NCBI GenBank assembly: GCA_018725565.1
Contig: QLUR01000025.1
Span: 1 to 40,085, forward strand
Source: Bacillota bacterium
Lineage (GTDB): Bacteria; Bacillota; Dethiobacteria; Dethiobacterales; Dethiobacteraceae
Reading direction: 5' to 3'
Length of the DNA: 40,085 nucleotides
In this document: one piece after another, positions 693 through 6,970 of the stretch
Layout of the letters: each line of letters opens with the position of its first letter
How positions within the stretch are numbered: position 1 is the first letter of the stretch
Position numbers and translations under genes: made by a program
The notes under the pieces: model-generated
What the model was told of the DNA's origin: nothing
The model's database searches: none
The model's input: the letters and a program-made list of their open reading frames with translations, nothing else

Positions 693-1352
693 TCAGGGGT
701 TGTTTCTCGTCTGTTCGGCAAAGACGTTGAAGCTGACCACCGGCACAATGCCCTGCAGGTCGTTACCCGCGTTGATGTTCATGGTCACTTCATAGACCAG
801 TCCCACCCCGGGCGCCATCCAGGGCGGCGCACCTGGGGCAAGAGGCGAGATAACCGGCTTGTAGGTAGCAGGCTGCGGGCCGGTCAGCAACGGGGCAAGC
901 GGACCGTTATACAAAACATTCGCAGGCTGCCCCAGCACAAAGATTCTTACATTCATATTACCGGCAAAAGATGCCGCCAGGATCGGGGTTGCCGCCGGCG
1001 GGGCGCCGTTGATAGAGGTAATCTCCGCCGAAACCTGGTGCAGGCGCACCTGCAGCGAGCCTGGGTTGCGCACGCTTAGGCTGCGGGACACTGTGCGGCC
1101 CGGCCACCACAGACCGGTTGGATTCAAAGGGTCCTGTCCTTGTGCCGCAATTCCTTCAGCATCAGTGGTGTAAAACATCGGGCCGGGGATAGGGTCGCCT
1201 AGCGTTCGGTGAGCATAAATATCCACCGTGCCGGCGGTAAAGTTATTGCCCGCATTAAGTGCCGTGTCGGTGAAGAGGGCCATGGTGGCGCCGCCAACCA
1301 GCGCGGCAGTAAGCACCACTGTTAAAACGAGCAGAAAGATTTTTGTTTTCAT
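693..1352 (-). CDS. TasA/camelysin-like SipW-dependent secreted protein
   Basis: About 219 residues. The N terminus has a short basic start, a hydrophobic stretch and the SipW-type signature ALVGGATMALFTDT, followed by the family's conserved N-x-FTAGTVDI segment. The rest is a beta-rich, proline- and alanine-rich domain ending in VSFNVFAEQTRNNP, as in TasA/CalY fibre-forming or surface-associated proteins. ATG at 1352 was chosen over TTG at 1355; both follow AAAGGAGG. The central part diverges from the next two paralogues: a longer loop replaces the NMAPGDTYNG block. It is the last gene of the cluster and ends before the hairpin at 621-652. Family membership is clear; whether it forms fibres is inference. 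Confidence 0.8.
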   Translation of the reverse strand: MKTKIFLLVLTVVLTAALVGGATMALFTDTALNAGNNFTAGTVDIYAHRTLGDPIPGPMFYTTDAEGIAAQGQDPLNPTGLWWPGRTVSRSLSVRNPGSLQVRLHQVSAEITSINGAPPAATPILAASFAGNMNVRIFVLGQPANVLYNGPLAPLLTGPQPATYKPVISPLAPGAPPWMAPGVGLVYEVTMNINAGNDLQGIVPVVSFNVFAEQTRNNP

Positions 1353-1431
1353 CAAGATGTTCCTCCTTTCCTTGTCGGCATTGCGACAGGATTAAGGCGC
1401 AGTTTAAGCTAGTTCATGATGCAGGTTACTG

Positions 1432-1902
1432 CTACGGCAATGGGTTATTGGCTGTCTGCACGGCACTGATGGTGAAGTCAACGGTGCCGACGTCACCCTG
1501 ATAATCATTGCCCGCGCCAATCGGCAGGGCTACGGTGAAACTAACGGCAGCCGAAGCTCCCGGAGCAAGGACGACGTTTTGGTCATCGCCAAGTCCGCCG
1601 ACTACAGCGGGAGTGGGGCCGCCAAACAGAGCGCCAGCCGCCGCGGCCGATACACTATAGCGCAGTTCCAGTGTGCCGGCGTTTCTGACAGTAAAGCTGC
1701 CGTTGTAGGTGTCGCCAGGCGCCATGTTTGTGATAGCTACCGGCACGGCAGGTACCGCGCCTACTTCAACATCCACCGTCCCAGCCGTAAAGGTGTTGCC
1801 TGCGTTGGCCGCCGTGTCGGTAAAGAGGGCCATGGTGGCGCCGCCGACGAGGGCAGCGGCCAAAGCGATAACCAGCATACTCATAAACATTTTTGTTTTC
1901 AT
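1432..1902 (-). CDS. TasA/camelysin-like SipW-dependent secreted protein, downstream of c-di-GMP riboswitch
   Basis: 156 residues. The signal segment ends in ALVGGATMALFTDT, followed by FTAGTVDVEVG, the block NMAPGDTYNGSFTVRNAGTL and a final GNDYQGDVGTVDFTISAVQ, all typical of the TasA/CalY family (Peptidase_M73-type domain). ATG at 1902 is set by GGAGG ten bases upstream; the frame stays open farther upstream, but that part lies within the riboswitch leader and is not coding. It is near-identical in large blocks to the N-terminal half of the next gene at 2126-3091. The expected product is a secreted surface or matrix protein processed by the SipW-like peptidase at 3169-3783. The riboswitch upstream suggests expression responds to cyclic di-GMP. 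Confidence 0.85.
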   Translation of the reverse strand: MKTKMFMSMLVIALAAALVGGATMALFTDTAANAGNTFTAGTVDVEVGAVPAVPVAITNMAPGDTYNGSFTVRNAGTLELRYSVSAAAAGALFGGPTPAVVGGLGDDQNVVLAPGASAAVSFTVALPIGAGNDYQGDVGTVDFTISAVQTANNPLP

Positions 1903-1970
1903 TTTTTTCAAACCTCCGGTTTTATTTTTTTTTGGCATTTTTGGCGTACTAGCGGCACGCCGCGCCCGCT

Positions 1971-2050
1971 CCGGGCAGCCAGGCTGCCTTAAATATTTTA
2001 AGGCCCAGCGGCTTTGCGTCACTGCCTCACGGCAGTTTTGCTCTTAGCCG
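1971..2050 (-). promoter_or_regulatory. c-di-GMP-I (GEMM-I) riboswitch aptamer
   Basis: Read on the minus strand from 2050, the sequence shows the GEMM-I landmarks in order. There is a GCAAA segment, a hairpin CTGCC-GTGA-GGCAG with a GNRA tetraloop, and the invariant core TGACGCAAAGCC. A second hairpin follows (GGGCCTT, A/T-rich loop, AAGGC), carrying AGCC plus the tetraloop-receptor side GGCAGCCTGGCTGCCCG. This matches the class consensus closely. It sits about 70 nt upstream of the TasA-like start at 1902. No T-run terminator follows: the region to the ribosome binding site is A-rich. The CCGGAGG Shine-Dalgarno may instead be controlled by pairing with the CCCGG at the aptamer's 3' side (inference). 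Confidence 0.85.
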
Positions 2051-2125
2051 GTAAACAACAACTATCGGTCCACGGTTCGAGAAACTATCCCCTGAATTAC
2101 CTCCCTTCCATAAAGCGCCAATTTA

Positions 2126-3091
2126 TTACTGTATTACATTGGCATCAAACAGGGCCACGCTGGGCAAAGAATCGTCATTAACATTTCTTACCCTGAGTGA
2201 CAAGGTGTAAACACCGGCGACCGGCGCCGTCCAGCTCCAGGATTCCCAGGCGCTCTGGCCGTAATTCCCGACAACGGCGACGGACTTTGCCCAGGGGGTA
2301 GCCAAGGGACCACCGCTGATAATAACGACCGCCGCATCATCGTTGAATGGGAGATAATCAACGGCATCAAACGCCGCCCTGCCGGCAAGCGTCTGCCCGG
2401 CGCTTAAAACAACGGCCTGACTTACTTCCGTGTATACGTCTTCTGCACCGGCGTGTAACACCGCGAAATGCCCACCTTCGGACGCAGTATAAATCGGGCC
2501 TCCACCACCATCTGCTTGATAGGTCGTGACAACTTGCGCCAATTCCGGGAAATTAACATTCCAGCCAGTGAAGTTGCCGGCTTCAAACCCGCCGTTTACC
2601 AGCGCGTTAAGCGGGTTATTGGCTGTCTGCACGGCATTGATGGTGAAGTTGACGGTGCCGACGTCACCCTGATAATCATTGCCCGCCGTAAGCGGCAGAT
2701 ATACAGTGAAGGCGACGGTGGCCAAACCGCCAGGAGCTAGAACAACGTTTGTGTGGTTTGCGGTTAAGGCAACCACCGCTGGAGTATTACCGGGAGCGAC
2801 ACCTTGAACCGCAAACAGGGGTCCAGCCGTCGCGGCCGATACACTATAGCGCAGCTCCAGCGTGCCGGCGTTTCTGACGGTAAAACTGCCGTTGTAGGTG
2901 TCGCCAGGCGCCATATTATAAACATGCACAGGAACCGTCGGGTCGTCACCTACTTCAATGTCCACCGTGCCGGCGGTGAAGGCGTTGCCGGCATTGGTTA
3001 CCGAGTCGGTAAAGAGGGCCATGGTGGCGCCGCCGACCAGCGCGGCAAGCAGAATCAATACGCTCATGCCTGCAAGTAGTTTTTTCTGCAT
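2126..3091 (-). CDS. TasA/camelysin-like protein fused to a C-terminal jelly-roll-type domain
   Basis: 321 residues in two parts. Residues 1-160 are a SipW-type signal (ALVGGATMALFTDS) plus a TasA/CalY domain sharing NMAPGDTYNGSFTVRNAGTL and YQGDVGTVNFTINAVQ with the paralogue downstream. Residues 161-321 begin NALVNGGFEAGNFTGWNV, the usual opening of CBM_4_9-like beta-sandwich modules, and end LSLRVRNVNDDSLPSVALFDANV, consistent with a carbohydrate- or ligand-binding jelly roll. The start is fixed by AAAGGAGG eight bases before ATG. The fusion suggests a matrix subunit bearing an adhesive or glycan-binding module. The architecture is read from sequence; binding is inferred. Confidence 0.82.
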   Translation of the reverse strand: MQKKLLAGMSVLILLAALVGGATMALFTDSVTNAGNAFTAGTVDIEVGDDPTVPVHVYNMAPGDTYNGSFTVRNAGTLELRYSVSAATAGPLFAVQGVAPGNTPAVVALTANHTNVVLAPGGLATVAFTVYLPLTAGNDYQGDVGTVNFTINAVQTANNPLNALVNGGFEAGNFTGWNVNFPELAQVVTTYQADGGGGPIYTASEGGHFAVLHAGAEDVYTEVSQAVVLSAGQTLAGRAAFDAVDYLPFNDDAAVVIISGGPLATPWAKSVAVVGNYGQSAWESWSWTAPVAGVYTLSLRVRNVNDDSLPSVALFDANVIQ

Positions 3092-3168: not shown

Positions 3169-3783
3169 CTAGCCTCCCCCCTTCAACTGCTTTTCTCTTT
3201 CCAAAACCTGCGCGTAGCGGAAAAGCTTGCGCAGCTCAGAAGCGATAATCAGCAGCGCCGGAAGAATGACCAGCAGCAATATTCCCCTTTCGGTCCTGAC
3301 AAAGCTGAACAGGTAGCCGAAATACGGCACACTGTGCTGCACGCGGCCGATCAGGTTGCCGCCCGGCAGCGGCAGCGGGTCGTCGGCATCGTTGGCGTCG
3401 CCGCGGGTGATGAAGCTTGGCGGCTCAGTCGGCAAGACCTGCATGACCCGGTGCGTGACAATGGTCTCCGCCTTCTCAGGGTCCGGGTCGCGGTAAGTGA
3501 TAATGTCGCCGGCCCGCACTTCCATCGGCTCAAGCGGCCGTACCAGCACGATGCTGCCGAGCTCAAAAGTTGGGCTCATGCTGCCGCCCTCGACAATGTA
3601 GAGCTGGTACCCGGCCACGGCGGGGGTGCCGCCGGTGAAGCGGCTCTGCAGGAGGAAAAAGACCAGCGCCGCCATCAGCAGCAGTACGCAGGCGAAAACC
3701 AGGTTTCCGGCGAGGCGGAGGATTTTGCGGGCCATGGAGTGCGCCGCTGGTTGTTTAGCTGCTGCTGTCTGTGCTGTTTCCAT
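3169..3783 (-). CDS. sipW: SipW-type (ER/archaeal-type) signal peptidase I
   Basis: 204 residues from ATG 3783, which has GGGGGAGG eight bases upstream; an in-frame ATG at 3804 lacks such a site. One membrane segment lies at about residues 25-47 and a second near the C terminus (GILLLVILPALLIIAS). The catalytic serine is in GGSMSPTF. The usual bacterial lysine is replaced by histidine in ETIVTHRV, and FITRGDANDADDP forms box E with the acidic residues, so this is the Ser-His ER-type peptidase. Family members process TasA-like precursors, and four candidate substrates surround it. The first 10 codons overlap the 3' end of the gene upstream, implying translational coupling. Confidence 0.9.
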   Translation of the reverse strand: METAQTAAAKQPAAHSMARKILRLAGNLVFACVLLLMAALVFFLLQSRFTGGTPAVAGYQLYIVEGGSMSPTFELGSIVLVRPLEPMEVRAGDIITYRDPDPEKAETIVTHRVMQVLPTEPPSFITRGDANDADDPLPLPGGNLIGRVQHSVPYFGYLFSFVRTERGILLLVILPALLIIASELRKLFRYAQVLEREKQLKGGG

Positions 3784-4843
3784 CACTGCTGCCTCCCCCG
3801 TCATTGACTCCGGCGCTTCCCGGTTCCCCGCCGTCAGGCCCGTTGCTCAGTTGACCTGCGCTTTCACTGCCGTCATCGCTTTGGTCCATATCCTTATTAA
3901 TACTTTCAGAATCACCAGTTTTGCCGTCAGCGCCGTCGCTCTTATTGCTCTGCCCCTGCCCGGCATTTTCATTATCGTTGCCCTTATTTTCTTCATCTTT
4001 GCTATCTTTTTCTTTGTCAACCGGGACCGCCGGCTGGCCGCCGTGGTCAGCGCCGGTTTGTTCGTCCGTGGAAACTGCGTCGTCTGTTAGCTGTTGCTCC
4101 GTTTTATCAGCCTTGTTGCCGTCGCCGTCGGGTTTGTCAGTTATCTTCTCCTTTGGGCTTTTCATCTTTAATTTTTCTTCGGGGTTTTCATACACCGTTC
4201 CATAAACTGTATCGCTTACCGTGCTTTCTTGGCTTTTCTTTTTGTTGACAGGCGGTGCGGCCAGGCCCAGCCGGGCGGGGATTTCCGCGATAATAAAGCA
4301 GTTTAGCGCTGTAAGGTACAGCATGCCCTGGTATTCGCCGGGCTGGGCGTCCGGGCCGGTGTCCAGCTTAAAGTCCAGGACAGCCTGCCTGCCCGGCGCT
4401 AAGCTTACAGGACCTGCCTGCTTAAAGAACGGCGCCAGGACCCCGCAGAAATGCCAATCCAGGGTAAGCAGGCGGTCGCCGATATTGCTGACGACCAAAA
4501 CCGAAGGGAAGTTTCTGTTGTTGCCGGCGGGATAGGTGCCAAAATCCAGGTAAATCTGTCCGCCGACGGTTTGCGCCACATCGAAGGCCGGACCCGGGTT
4601 GCCCGGGCTGTTGTTCGTATTGCTGTTGCCGGGCGCCAGCGCCAGGTTGTCGGCAAAGGTGGTGGCGCGGAAAGTATGCGGTTCTGCTTCGGCGCGGTCG
4701 GTGAAGTAGGCGCGGGTGGCCGGGAGCAGCAGCGGAAAACAAAACAGGACTACGACTGATACCAGCCAGCCCGCTGCGCGGAGCTTACTTATGTACCCTT
4801 GCCGGCGCCTGTGGCGCTGCCGGCGCTGCTGCAACCTGTTCAT
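3755..4843 (-). CDS. SipW-type-leader surface protein with long acidic low-complexity tail
   Basis: 362 residues. A very basic start (RQRHRRRQG) precedes a hydrophobic segment and ATRAYFTDRAEAE, which resembles SipW-dependent leaders. Residues about 50-195 form a beta-rich domain with repeated statements such as FPSVLVVSNIGDRLLTLDWH and LAPGRQAVLDFKL, similar in layout to TasA-like or Ig-like fibre domains. From about residue 200 onward the chain is a hydrophilic tail rich in Asp, Glu, Lys, Ser, Gly and Asn with no predicted fold, ending in SSDGNSTDSSS. ATG 4843 has AAGGGAGGG upstream. It overlaps sipW by about 29 bases. It may act as a cell-wall-spanning anchor or assembly factor; that is inference. 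Confidence 0.7.
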   Translation of the reverse strand: MNRLQQRRQRHRRRQGYISKLRAAGWLVSVVVLFCFPLLLPATRAYFTDRAEAEPHTFRATTFADNLALAPGNSNTNNSPGNPGPAFDVAQTVGGQIYLDFGTYPAGNNRNFPSVLVVSNIGDRLLTLDWHFCGVLAPFFKQAGPVSLAPGRQAVLDFKLDTGPDAQPGEYQGMLYLTALNCFIIAEIPARLGLAAPPVNKKKSQESTVSDTVYGTVYENPEEKLKMKSPKEKITDKPDGDGNKADKTEQQLTDDAVSTDEQTGADHGGQPAVPVDKEKDSKDEENKGNDNENAGQGQSNKSDGADGKTGDSESINKDMDQSDDGSESAGQLSNGPDGGEPGSAGVNDGGGSSDGNSTDSSS

Positions 4844-5474: not shown

Positions 5475-6689
5475 TCAGGACTGTCCGGAGGAGCTTAAGG
5501 GCTGCAGCCGGCTTTTCAGCAGCAGCTCCCGGTCTTTAAGGCCGGCGGCCAGGCGCTGCAGGATGCGCTGACCTTGCTCCGTGGTGGTGTTCGGTAACAG
5601 GGCCATAAACTGCTGCTGGCCAAAGCGGCAGAACACGTCGCTTTTACGCAGGGTGTCCTGCAAAACCTCCTGCAAGGCGGTCATGTAATTCTGCCTCTGT
5701 TTTGCCGTTTCGCCGCTGAAGTCGGCGGAGGTTACGGCTAAGAGGGCTAGCAGCCCCGACTGGTTGTTTCTATCCGCGCGGCGGATTTCCAGGTTGCAGA
5801 CGATATTAAAAAATTCCGGATCGCAAAGAAAAGCGCCGATAGCCTGCTGTCTGTCTTGCATGGTCTGCCTGAATGCGGAAAAATCAAGGACGTCGCCGCC
5901 GTCGCCGTTACGCTCCTGGATGATCCGGAGCATCCGTTTCATGGCCAGGGAGGGCTTCAAGGACATTTCCCGATAAAAGACAGCCGTGACATTCTCATAA
6001 TGCCATTTGGCTTGCGCTACTTTCCCTTCGCCCAGTAAGGCCTCCAGCAACAGCAGGTGCAGTTCTTCCTCAAAATAGTCAATCAGCAGCGCCCTGGTTA
6101 TTTCCTCCACAATTTCTGCATGAGCCTGTGTTTCTTTAAGCACCAGGGCCAGGTCGACAACACTTTGCAGATACAAGCGGCGGTAGTGGCTTCTGAGGGG
6201 TATCAACCAGTCGCTGTAAGCGCATTCTGGCAGCAAGTCGCCTTTATACAGCGCAAGCCCCTGCCTGTACAGGGTCACCGCTTCCTGCGCCAACCCCTGT
6301 TTTGCGGCCTTGCGGGCCTGGCGGCAGCTGGCTTCGAATTCGGTTATATCAAGCCATAAATCCTGGTGGCGGTTGAAAGTATACCCGCCCTGGTTAAATT
6401 TTATTAAATCCACTCCGCCGCCCAGCAGGCTGCGCAGACGGTAGATCAGGGTACGGACGGCGCTTTTGGGGTCTTCATAGGGCTGCTCCGGCCACAACTG
6501 CTCCGCGATAACCTCCGGGAGCAGGATACGGTCGTGGTTAACCAGCAAATATTTGAATAACTCCCATACTTTCCGCGAGCGGCCGTGTGATTCGCAGAGG
6601 TAGGTGTCGCCGTTTATTACCACAAAATGGCCTAAAGTAAAGACTTTGAGCTGCTTCGCTGCATCCGCAGAGAAAAACTTGGCCTCCAT
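5475..6689 (-). CDS. SARP/BTAD-type transcriptional regulator with degenerate GGDEF domain
   Basis: 404 residues from ATG 6689, set by GGAGGAG five bases upstream; the open frame continues upstream but crosses the promoter at 6770-6798. Residues about 10-105 are an OmpR-type winged helix (FTLGHFVVINGDTYL ... SAVRTLIYRLRSLLG). Residues about 115-265 are a bacterial transcriptional activation domain made of TPR-like helices (ALYKGDLLPECAYSDWLIPLR). The C-terminal portion, about 275-390, has GGDEF-family layout (LRKSDVFCRFGQQQFMALLP then NTTTEQGQRILQRL), but the catalytic GGDEF motif is replaced by GQQQF. It is therefore unlikely to be an active diguanylate cyclase and may bind a nucleotide as a sensor. 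It probably regulates the adjacent surface-protein cluster or another target; no direct evidence is visible. Confidence 0.82.
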   Translation of the reverse strand: MEAKFFSADAAKQLKVFTLGHFVVINGDTYLCESHGRSRKVWELFKYLLVNHDRILLPEVIAEQLWPEQPYEDPKSAVRTLIYRLRSLLGGGVDLIKFNQGGYTFNRHQDLWLDITEFEASCRQARKAAKQGLAQEAVTLYRQGLALYKGDLLPECAYSDWLIPLRSHYRRLYLQSVVDLALVLKETQAHAEIVEEITRALLIDYFEEELHLLLLEALLGEGKVAQAKWHYENVTAVFYREMSLKPSLAMKRMLRIIQERNGDGGDVLDFSAFRQTMQDRQQAIGAFLCDPEFFNIVCNLEIRRADRNNQSGLLALLAVTSADFSGETAKQRQNYMTALQEVLQDTLRKSDVFCRFGQQQFMALLPNTTTEQGQRILQRLAAGLKDRELLLKSRLQPLSSSGQS

Positions 6690-6769
6690 CTTGCTCCTCC
6701 AGTTCAACAGAAAAGCTTTGTTGGACGAAGTTTTACAGAGTGTCGCTGCGTCTTCTTTAGGTAATGTTA

Positions 6770-6798
6770 ATGATACCATGAAAATGTTAATTATGCAA
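6770..6798 (-). promoter_or_regulatory. sigma-A promoter of the BTAD-regulator gene
   Basis: On the minus strand TTGCAT (6798-6793) and TATCAT (6775-6770) are separated by exactly 17 nt. The predicted start leaves a leader of about 75 nt before the ATG at 6689. The remaining bases to 6970 show nothing else I can name. Confidence 0.6.
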
Positions 6799-6970
6799 AA
6801 CATTCTTGAAGCCCGGTGGTTGACAGAAAAAAGTCGAGCCACCGACAGCAGGTGCTCAAGCAGATGCCAGGTTGTCAGGGCTGTTTTTGGCGTCACCCGG
6901 GAGATTGCTTTGACGAAAGCATATGCGATTGGGCGCAGGGCGGTCTTTCGTGACCGAGGTGAAGAGAAGC

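Follow-up and report, generated by a model that had tools for sequence, protein, structure and literature searches.

On the minus strand of the window, by which we mean the whole 40,085-nt stretch of DNA that was analysed, the order is a BTAD/SARP regulator, a protein without a family, a SipW-like peptidase, tas1, a GEMM-I aptamer, tas2 and tas3 (Table 1). The sequence-only reading had placed a c-di-GMP-I riboswitch between two TasA-like genes of a TasA/SipW cluster, and this setting was confirmed: the genes that flank the aptamer both encode SipW-dependent TasA/camelysin-like proteins.

Table 1. Features of the tas cluster and of the tas2 leader in the window.
Feature	Position (nt)	Strand	Basis
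tas3, second SipW-dependent protein, downstream on the same strand	693–1355	-	PF12389 32.1 bits, TIGR04088 20.3 bits
tas2, TasA/camelysin-like, 156 aa, SipW-type signal peptide, directly behind the riboswitch	1432–1902	-	PF12389 64.0 bits, TIGR04088 26.5 bits
Shine-Dalgarno GGAGG of tas2	1913–1917	-	sequence; ATG at 1902–1900
GCCCG-gag-CGGGC hairpin that shares bases with the P1 3' strand and would form in place of P1; lacks a T-run and is no terminator	1964–1976	-	sequence
P1 3' strand CCGG; possible pairings: to the P1 5' strand, to the Shine-Dalgarno flank CCGG (1919–1916), or inside the hairpin 1976–1964	1971–1974	-	sequence, complementarity test
GEMM-I (c-di-GMP-I class) aptamer: P1, P2 (GTGA tetraloop), short P3	1971–2052	-	RF01051, covariation in relatives
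A at the contact equivalent to Vc2 G20 (A14 of the Geobacter 3',3'-cGAMP riboswitch)	2042	-	model alignment
ACCGG; P1 5' strand is 2051–2048; same five letters again at the Shine-Dalgarno flank (1920–1916)	2048–2052	-	sequence
tas1, tas2 paralogue carrying an additional C-terminal domain; lies upstream of the riboswitch leader and outside it	2126–3091	-	profile search, comparison with tas2
SipW-like (archaeal-type) signal peptidase I	3169–3804	-	TIGR02228 116.7 bits, cut-off 51.85
sipW-accompanying protein	3755–4843	-	orthologues in L082, L084, L085
BTAD/SARP-type DNA-binding regulator with C-terminal degenerate GGDEF (GQQQF, 5621–5607) and intact I-site RxxD (RKSD, 5648–5637)	5475–6896	-	PF03704, PF00486, PF00990

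The products of tas1, tas2 and tas3 all carry PF12389 and SipW-type signal peptides, and tas2 scored above the curated cut-offs of both of its profiles (22.5 bits for PF12389 and 19 bits for TIGR04088). With the TasA equivalog NF046066, tas2 reached 37.2 bits against a cut-off of 450 bits; since tas1 to tas3 lie far under this cut-off for B. subtilis TasA, they are TasA-like and, by that test, not TasA orthologues. The signal peptidase did not reach the Bacillus SipW equivalog NF046067 (112.9 bits against 190). The start of tas2 is likely the ATG at 1902, with the GGAGG in front of it; a 196-aa open reading frame from GTG 2022 would overlap the aptamer and is an unlikely start. Orthologues of tas2 are 55–72% identical and are likewise found behind an aptamer. 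Over the N-terminal 161 aa, tas1 and tas2 are 71% identical. The three closest orthologous clusters, L082, L084 and L085, have the aptamer directly after sipW and no tas1 in between, so that tas1 looks like a later copy. The C-terminal domain added to tas1 has no assigned family, and no family match in Pfam or NCBIfam was found for the protein that accompanies sipW.

A cmscan search of the whole window matched RF01051 on the minus strand at 2052–1971 over the full length of the model (1–87), with 60.1 bits (E 1.9e-9) against a gathering score of 35. The proposed c-di-GMP-I (GEMM-I) class was therefore borne out, and the proposed span of 1971–2050 was right except at one end, which lies at 2052. 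The core had been described as a GNRA hairpin, GACGCAAAGCC and a receptor helix. The GTGA tetraloop and GACGCAAAGCC are present; the receptor helix proved half right, since P3 closes as a simple hairpin (CCUUAAA-AUA-UUUAAGG) without the 11-nt tetraloop receptor. The canonical CCUAAG/UAUGG receptor is absent here, as in most tasA-linked relatives. All 21 base pairs in the covariance model built in this work are formed by the window copy, and covariation of the fold is strong, with 126 cells changed on both sides among 66 relatives compared with 40 in shuffles. Aptamer positions are given below in the numbering of Vc2. The sole other RNA family match in the window was a SAM (S-box) riboswitch (10278–10176, minus strand, 97.9 bits), which precedes genes for O-acetylhomoserine sulfhydrylase-like and homoserine acetyltransferase-like proteins.

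The distance from the aptamer to the ATG of tas2 is 67 nt. No intrinsic terminator was found on the minus strand between the aptamer and tas2, in agreement with the earlier remark that no T-run terminator follows. A conserved promoter upstream of the aptamer was not seen, and transcripts that start at the upstream genes may extend across the leader. The repeat of ACCGG at P1 and at the Shine-Dalgarno flank recurs in the orthologues L082 and L085 as AACCGG.

The genomes of relatives were scanned with Rfam and PF12389 as well as with R1, a covariance model derived from 13 tasA-linked aptamers. The class Dethiobacteria was represented by 98 genomes; 36 of them had a PF12389 gene, and in 17 of these 36 an R1 aptamer was located 26–68 nt ahead of such a gene on the same strand; by our estimate, from several hundred R1 matches in about 200 Mb, the chance of such adjacency is approximately 1e-4 per gene. 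The arrangement was seen in three more genomes (G007, G049, G097), in which PF12389 misses the TasA-like gene or the contig ends inside the gene, and in at least six further genomes from other Bacillota families (L176, L178, L179, L180, L181, L188) among 398 sampled Bacillota genomes. Wherever the cluster was mapped, the aptamer precedes a gene of the tas2 type, and four genomes from two genera share the gene arrangement. A minority of the clusters in the class are without such an aptamer (e.g., L089, L091, L092, L093, L094, L095). The closest named cluster is that of Dethiobacter sp. CROMO_SB3 (L075). The placement of the aptamer before a TasA-like gene is real and conserved, and the proposal that it stands in front of a single TasA-like gene holds in the 17 Dethiobacteria genomes and also elsewhere in the Bacillota. 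In open papers, to which our search was limited, no report of a riboswitch with TasA, SipW or camelysin was found.

A short P3 without the 11-nt receptor is common to the tasA-linked aptamers, and every tasA-linked leader inspected had no terminator and a Shine-Dalgarno sequence 6–52 nt behind the aptamer. In contrast, several GEMM-I aptamers of the same genomes that are not linked to tasA are followed by T-run terminators (e.g., L134, L135, L138, L140). Several genomes of the class share a near-identical terminator (TTTCTCCCTGATGAGGCAGC...GCTGTCTC and a T-run) placed directly after GEMM-I aptamers (L134, L135, L136, L140, L143). The tasA-linked aptamers often scored best with RF03167 (c-di-GMP-I-GGC), through their short P3. 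Assignment of these aptamers to RF03167 was nevertheless ruled out, since A47 is found in all of them whereas the defining base of the RF03167 consensus is G47; the label thus reflects the length of P3. The window aptamer has A47 as well, as do all the aligned relatives, and its match is to RF01051. Automatic annotation will mislabel short-P3 A47 aptamers as RF03167; the latter model was observed to beat RF01051 for L083, L077, L076, L079, L086, L090, L081, L088 and L087. Compared with the Vc2 type of RF01051, the window shares the three-way junction, the GNRA-capped P2, the conserved core, A47, C92 and the basal P1, but differs in that A20 replaces G20, P3 is short and lacks the 11-nt receptor, a terminator is missing, and the aptamer lies within an operon ahead of a TasA-like gene. 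Judged by these sequence features, the tasA-linked aptamers are a sub-family of GEMM-I riboswitches for TasA-like genes.

The reading that we prefer, and to which we give about an even chance of being right, is that the leader of tas2 contains a working GEMM-I riboswitch, one of a terminator-less, Shine-Dalgarno-proximal Bacillota family that would set the translation of TasA-like proteins, with c-di-GMP as the most likely ligand and an ON direction. The lack of a terminator rules out control by intrinsic termination and makes translational control the simplest mechanism. Ligand binding would fix P1; when no ligand is present, the 3' strand of P1 would be available for pairing to the Shine-Dalgarno flank (in the window, CCGG to CCGG). 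A ligand that holds P1, and so frees the Shine-Dalgarno sequence, would turn tas2 on, and the output of tas2, the main TasA-like subunit in the SipW operon, would be set by translation or by translation-coupled stability.

When 20 leaders were folded with the aptamer either free or fixed, mean accessibility of the Shine-Dalgarno sequence rose from 0.47 to 0.68, with a rise in 16 of the 20. Leaders given the aptamers of other species behaved nearly alike in this test (p=0.16, not significant). Continuous pairing between the 3' strand of P1 (CCN...) and the Shine-Dalgarno flank (...NGG) was evaluated in 27 leaders and was longer for the leaders' own combinations than for swapped ones (mean 3.89 compared with 3.28 pairs, p=0.0003, a value that is slightly generous because a one-base offset was allowed after the first version of the test had given p=0.008). 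The signal is carried by five leaders (L177 with 10 bp, G097 with 9 bp, L176 and L181 with 6, and L180 with 5); with the two strongest, G097 and L177, left out, the test gave p=0.06, and the gene of L177 is not clearly TasA-like. In the window the pairing amounts to 4 bp (CCGG with CCGG) and competes with the stronger local hairpin at 1976–1964, which could itself serve in place of the pairing with the flank. The switch is probably translational and of the ON type, a proposal to which the folding and pairing results lend partial support. The P3 loop was also considered as a general anti-Shine-Dalgarno element and was rejected as a property of the whole set, being strong in G030 (11 bp) and at rank 2–3 in G067, G062, G097 and G010. 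In G030 (L079, 4747–4870) a stretch of 11 nt in the P3 loop CCUUCAUUUUG is complementary to the Shine-Dalgarno region (CAAAAUGGAGG), which makes this leader a strong candidate for translational switching through P3.

The same leaders could be read in the opposite direction, as c-di-GMP OFF switches in which the folded aptamer, 6–52 nt from the Shine-Dalgarno sequence, would block ribosome loading, or in which the ligand would promote Rho-dependent termination or cleavage. The Shine-Dalgarno sequence of G079 is only 6 nt from P1, inside the 30S footprint, and leaders without a terminator leave room for mechanisms other than intrinsic termination. We regard this direction as unlikely: constraining the aptamer raised the modelled accessibility, as described above, the pairs that would sequester the Shine-Dalgarno sequence use strands of P1 or P3, left unpaired in the open aptamer, and bacteria usually make more matrix protein, not less, when c-di-GMP is high.

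The base that sets the window apart is the A at model position 11, corresponding to position 20. This assignment follows from the model alignment, from the ligand contacts of the Geobacter cGAMP riboswitch given below, and from the consensus GGC of RF03167, which falls on positions 20, 47 and 92. In the alignment of 66 aptamers, 64 have G at position 20; the two with A are the window and L033 of genome G005, which is not tasA-linked and has a terminator behind it. At position 18 an A is found in 63 aptamers, and the remaining three, which are the orthologues from the nearest genus, have G. The Geobacter cGAMP riboswitch contacts its ligand through A11, A12, A14, A41, A42 and C75 (PMC6274999, PMC7288161). 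With A20, A17 and A18 (2045–2044), A47 (2015), A48 and C92 (1975), the window holds this same contact set, all but A20 agreeing with the consensus. G20A versions of c-di-GMP-I bind cGAMP. Mutants at positions 20 and 92 have a higher KD for c-di-GMP (PMC9049102). By analogy, A20 is expected to weaken the binding of c-di-GMP.

A switch of ligand could accordingly be proposed, in which the window aptamer would sense 3',3'-cGAMP as GEMM-Ib of Geobacter (Gs1761) does and tas2 would follow a messenger other than that of related species. G20 in all other tasA-linked copies examined makes the change lineage-specific, as such a switch would have it. We consider it improbable, and our view of it was lowered by the following observations. 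An A20-aptamer pattern was found in 57 of 398 Bacillota genomes (approximately 14%), compared with 2 for a reversed control, so that A20 alone is no proof of a changed ligand; none of the other A20 loci retrieved lies before a TasA-like gene. The signature of Hypr GGDEF enzymes is a Ser in place of the canonical Asp (PMC6456294). In the 98%-complete genome that holds the window, neither a Hypr GGDEF with Ser nor a SMODS-family cyclase was found; its eight intact GGDEFs all have the canonical Asp (GHxxGD, and GFxxGD in one). In G005 and the three orthologue genomes, the GGDEFs readable by motif search likewise have only Asp. The context also differs from that of Gs1761, being TasA/SipW and not the extracellular-respiration genes of Geobacter. 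Considering the missing Hypr and SMODS cyclases, the frequency of A20, and the I-site kept in the BTAD regulator of the cluster, we favour c-di-GMP, to which the eight intact GGDEFs and two PilZ proteins of the genome also point. The ligand would be a cyclic dinucleotide, with c-di-GMP the likeliest, and its binding may be weaker or less selective than that of a G20 aptamer. The two other GEMM-I aptamers of the same genome, which have G20, stand before flagellar and pilin-like genes (L001, flgB operon; L002, type IV pilin region).

With a similarly small probability, the riboswitch may be decaying in this sub-lineage through loss of its J1/2 contacts, the hairpin persisting as an RNA-stability element or a leftover. 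The window (at position 20) and the nearest genus (at position 18) have both left a consensus that 63–64 of the 66 aptamers keep, and the RF01051 score of the window is below that of most relatives. Against decay, every helix is preserved, as are the GNRA loop, A47 and C92; P1, with four GC pairs, is stronger than in most relatives, and the gene arrangement has been retained across the four genomes of two genera. The broader proposal that this lineage changed the contact base while its relatives kept G20, rewiring the matrix gene to another cyclic dinucleotide within an undescribed, terminator-less family of tasA riboswitches in which the 3' strand of P1 acts as anti-Shine-Dalgarno, we hold to be improbable.

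TasA-type fibres are a main protein of Bacillota biofilm matrices, and their control by c-di-GMP is not known to be direct. The same sensor standing before the same gene in many relatives suggests that the second messenger probably tunes the amount of matrix protein directly. The BTAD regulator is a candidate c-di-GMP receptor, or c-di-GMP-responsive transcription factor, in which the GGDEF motif has been lost and the I-site kept; the RxxD is invariant in 10 of 10 homologues from TasA clusters. Located upstream, it would let the same signal act a second time, at the level of transcription. If the preferred c-di-GMP reading is true, riboswitch and I-site regulator would form a direct, two-layer link from second messenger to matrix protein in anaerobic Bacillota, through which the cell's "settle or swim" signal would directly tune the output of that protein. 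The lineage-specific changes at positions 18 and 20 would offer natural variants for the ligand preference of the aptamer in the cell's own context.

The cluster resembles the tapA-sipW-tasA operon of Bacillus subtilis and the calY-tasA operon of B. cereus in that a SipW-type peptidase lies beside SipW-dependent proteins of the TasA/camelysin fold; it differs from them in the presence of the BTAD-GGDEF regulator and the GEMM-I leader. No riboswitch in either Bacillus operon was found in open papers, and none is known to us. The combination of BTAD with a degenerate GGDEF, as observed in the regulator of the window, was also seen at L013 (contig C40) of the same genome, which encodes a second BTAD-type protein with a degenerate GGDEF elsewhere (CSLGGHQF, RGSD).
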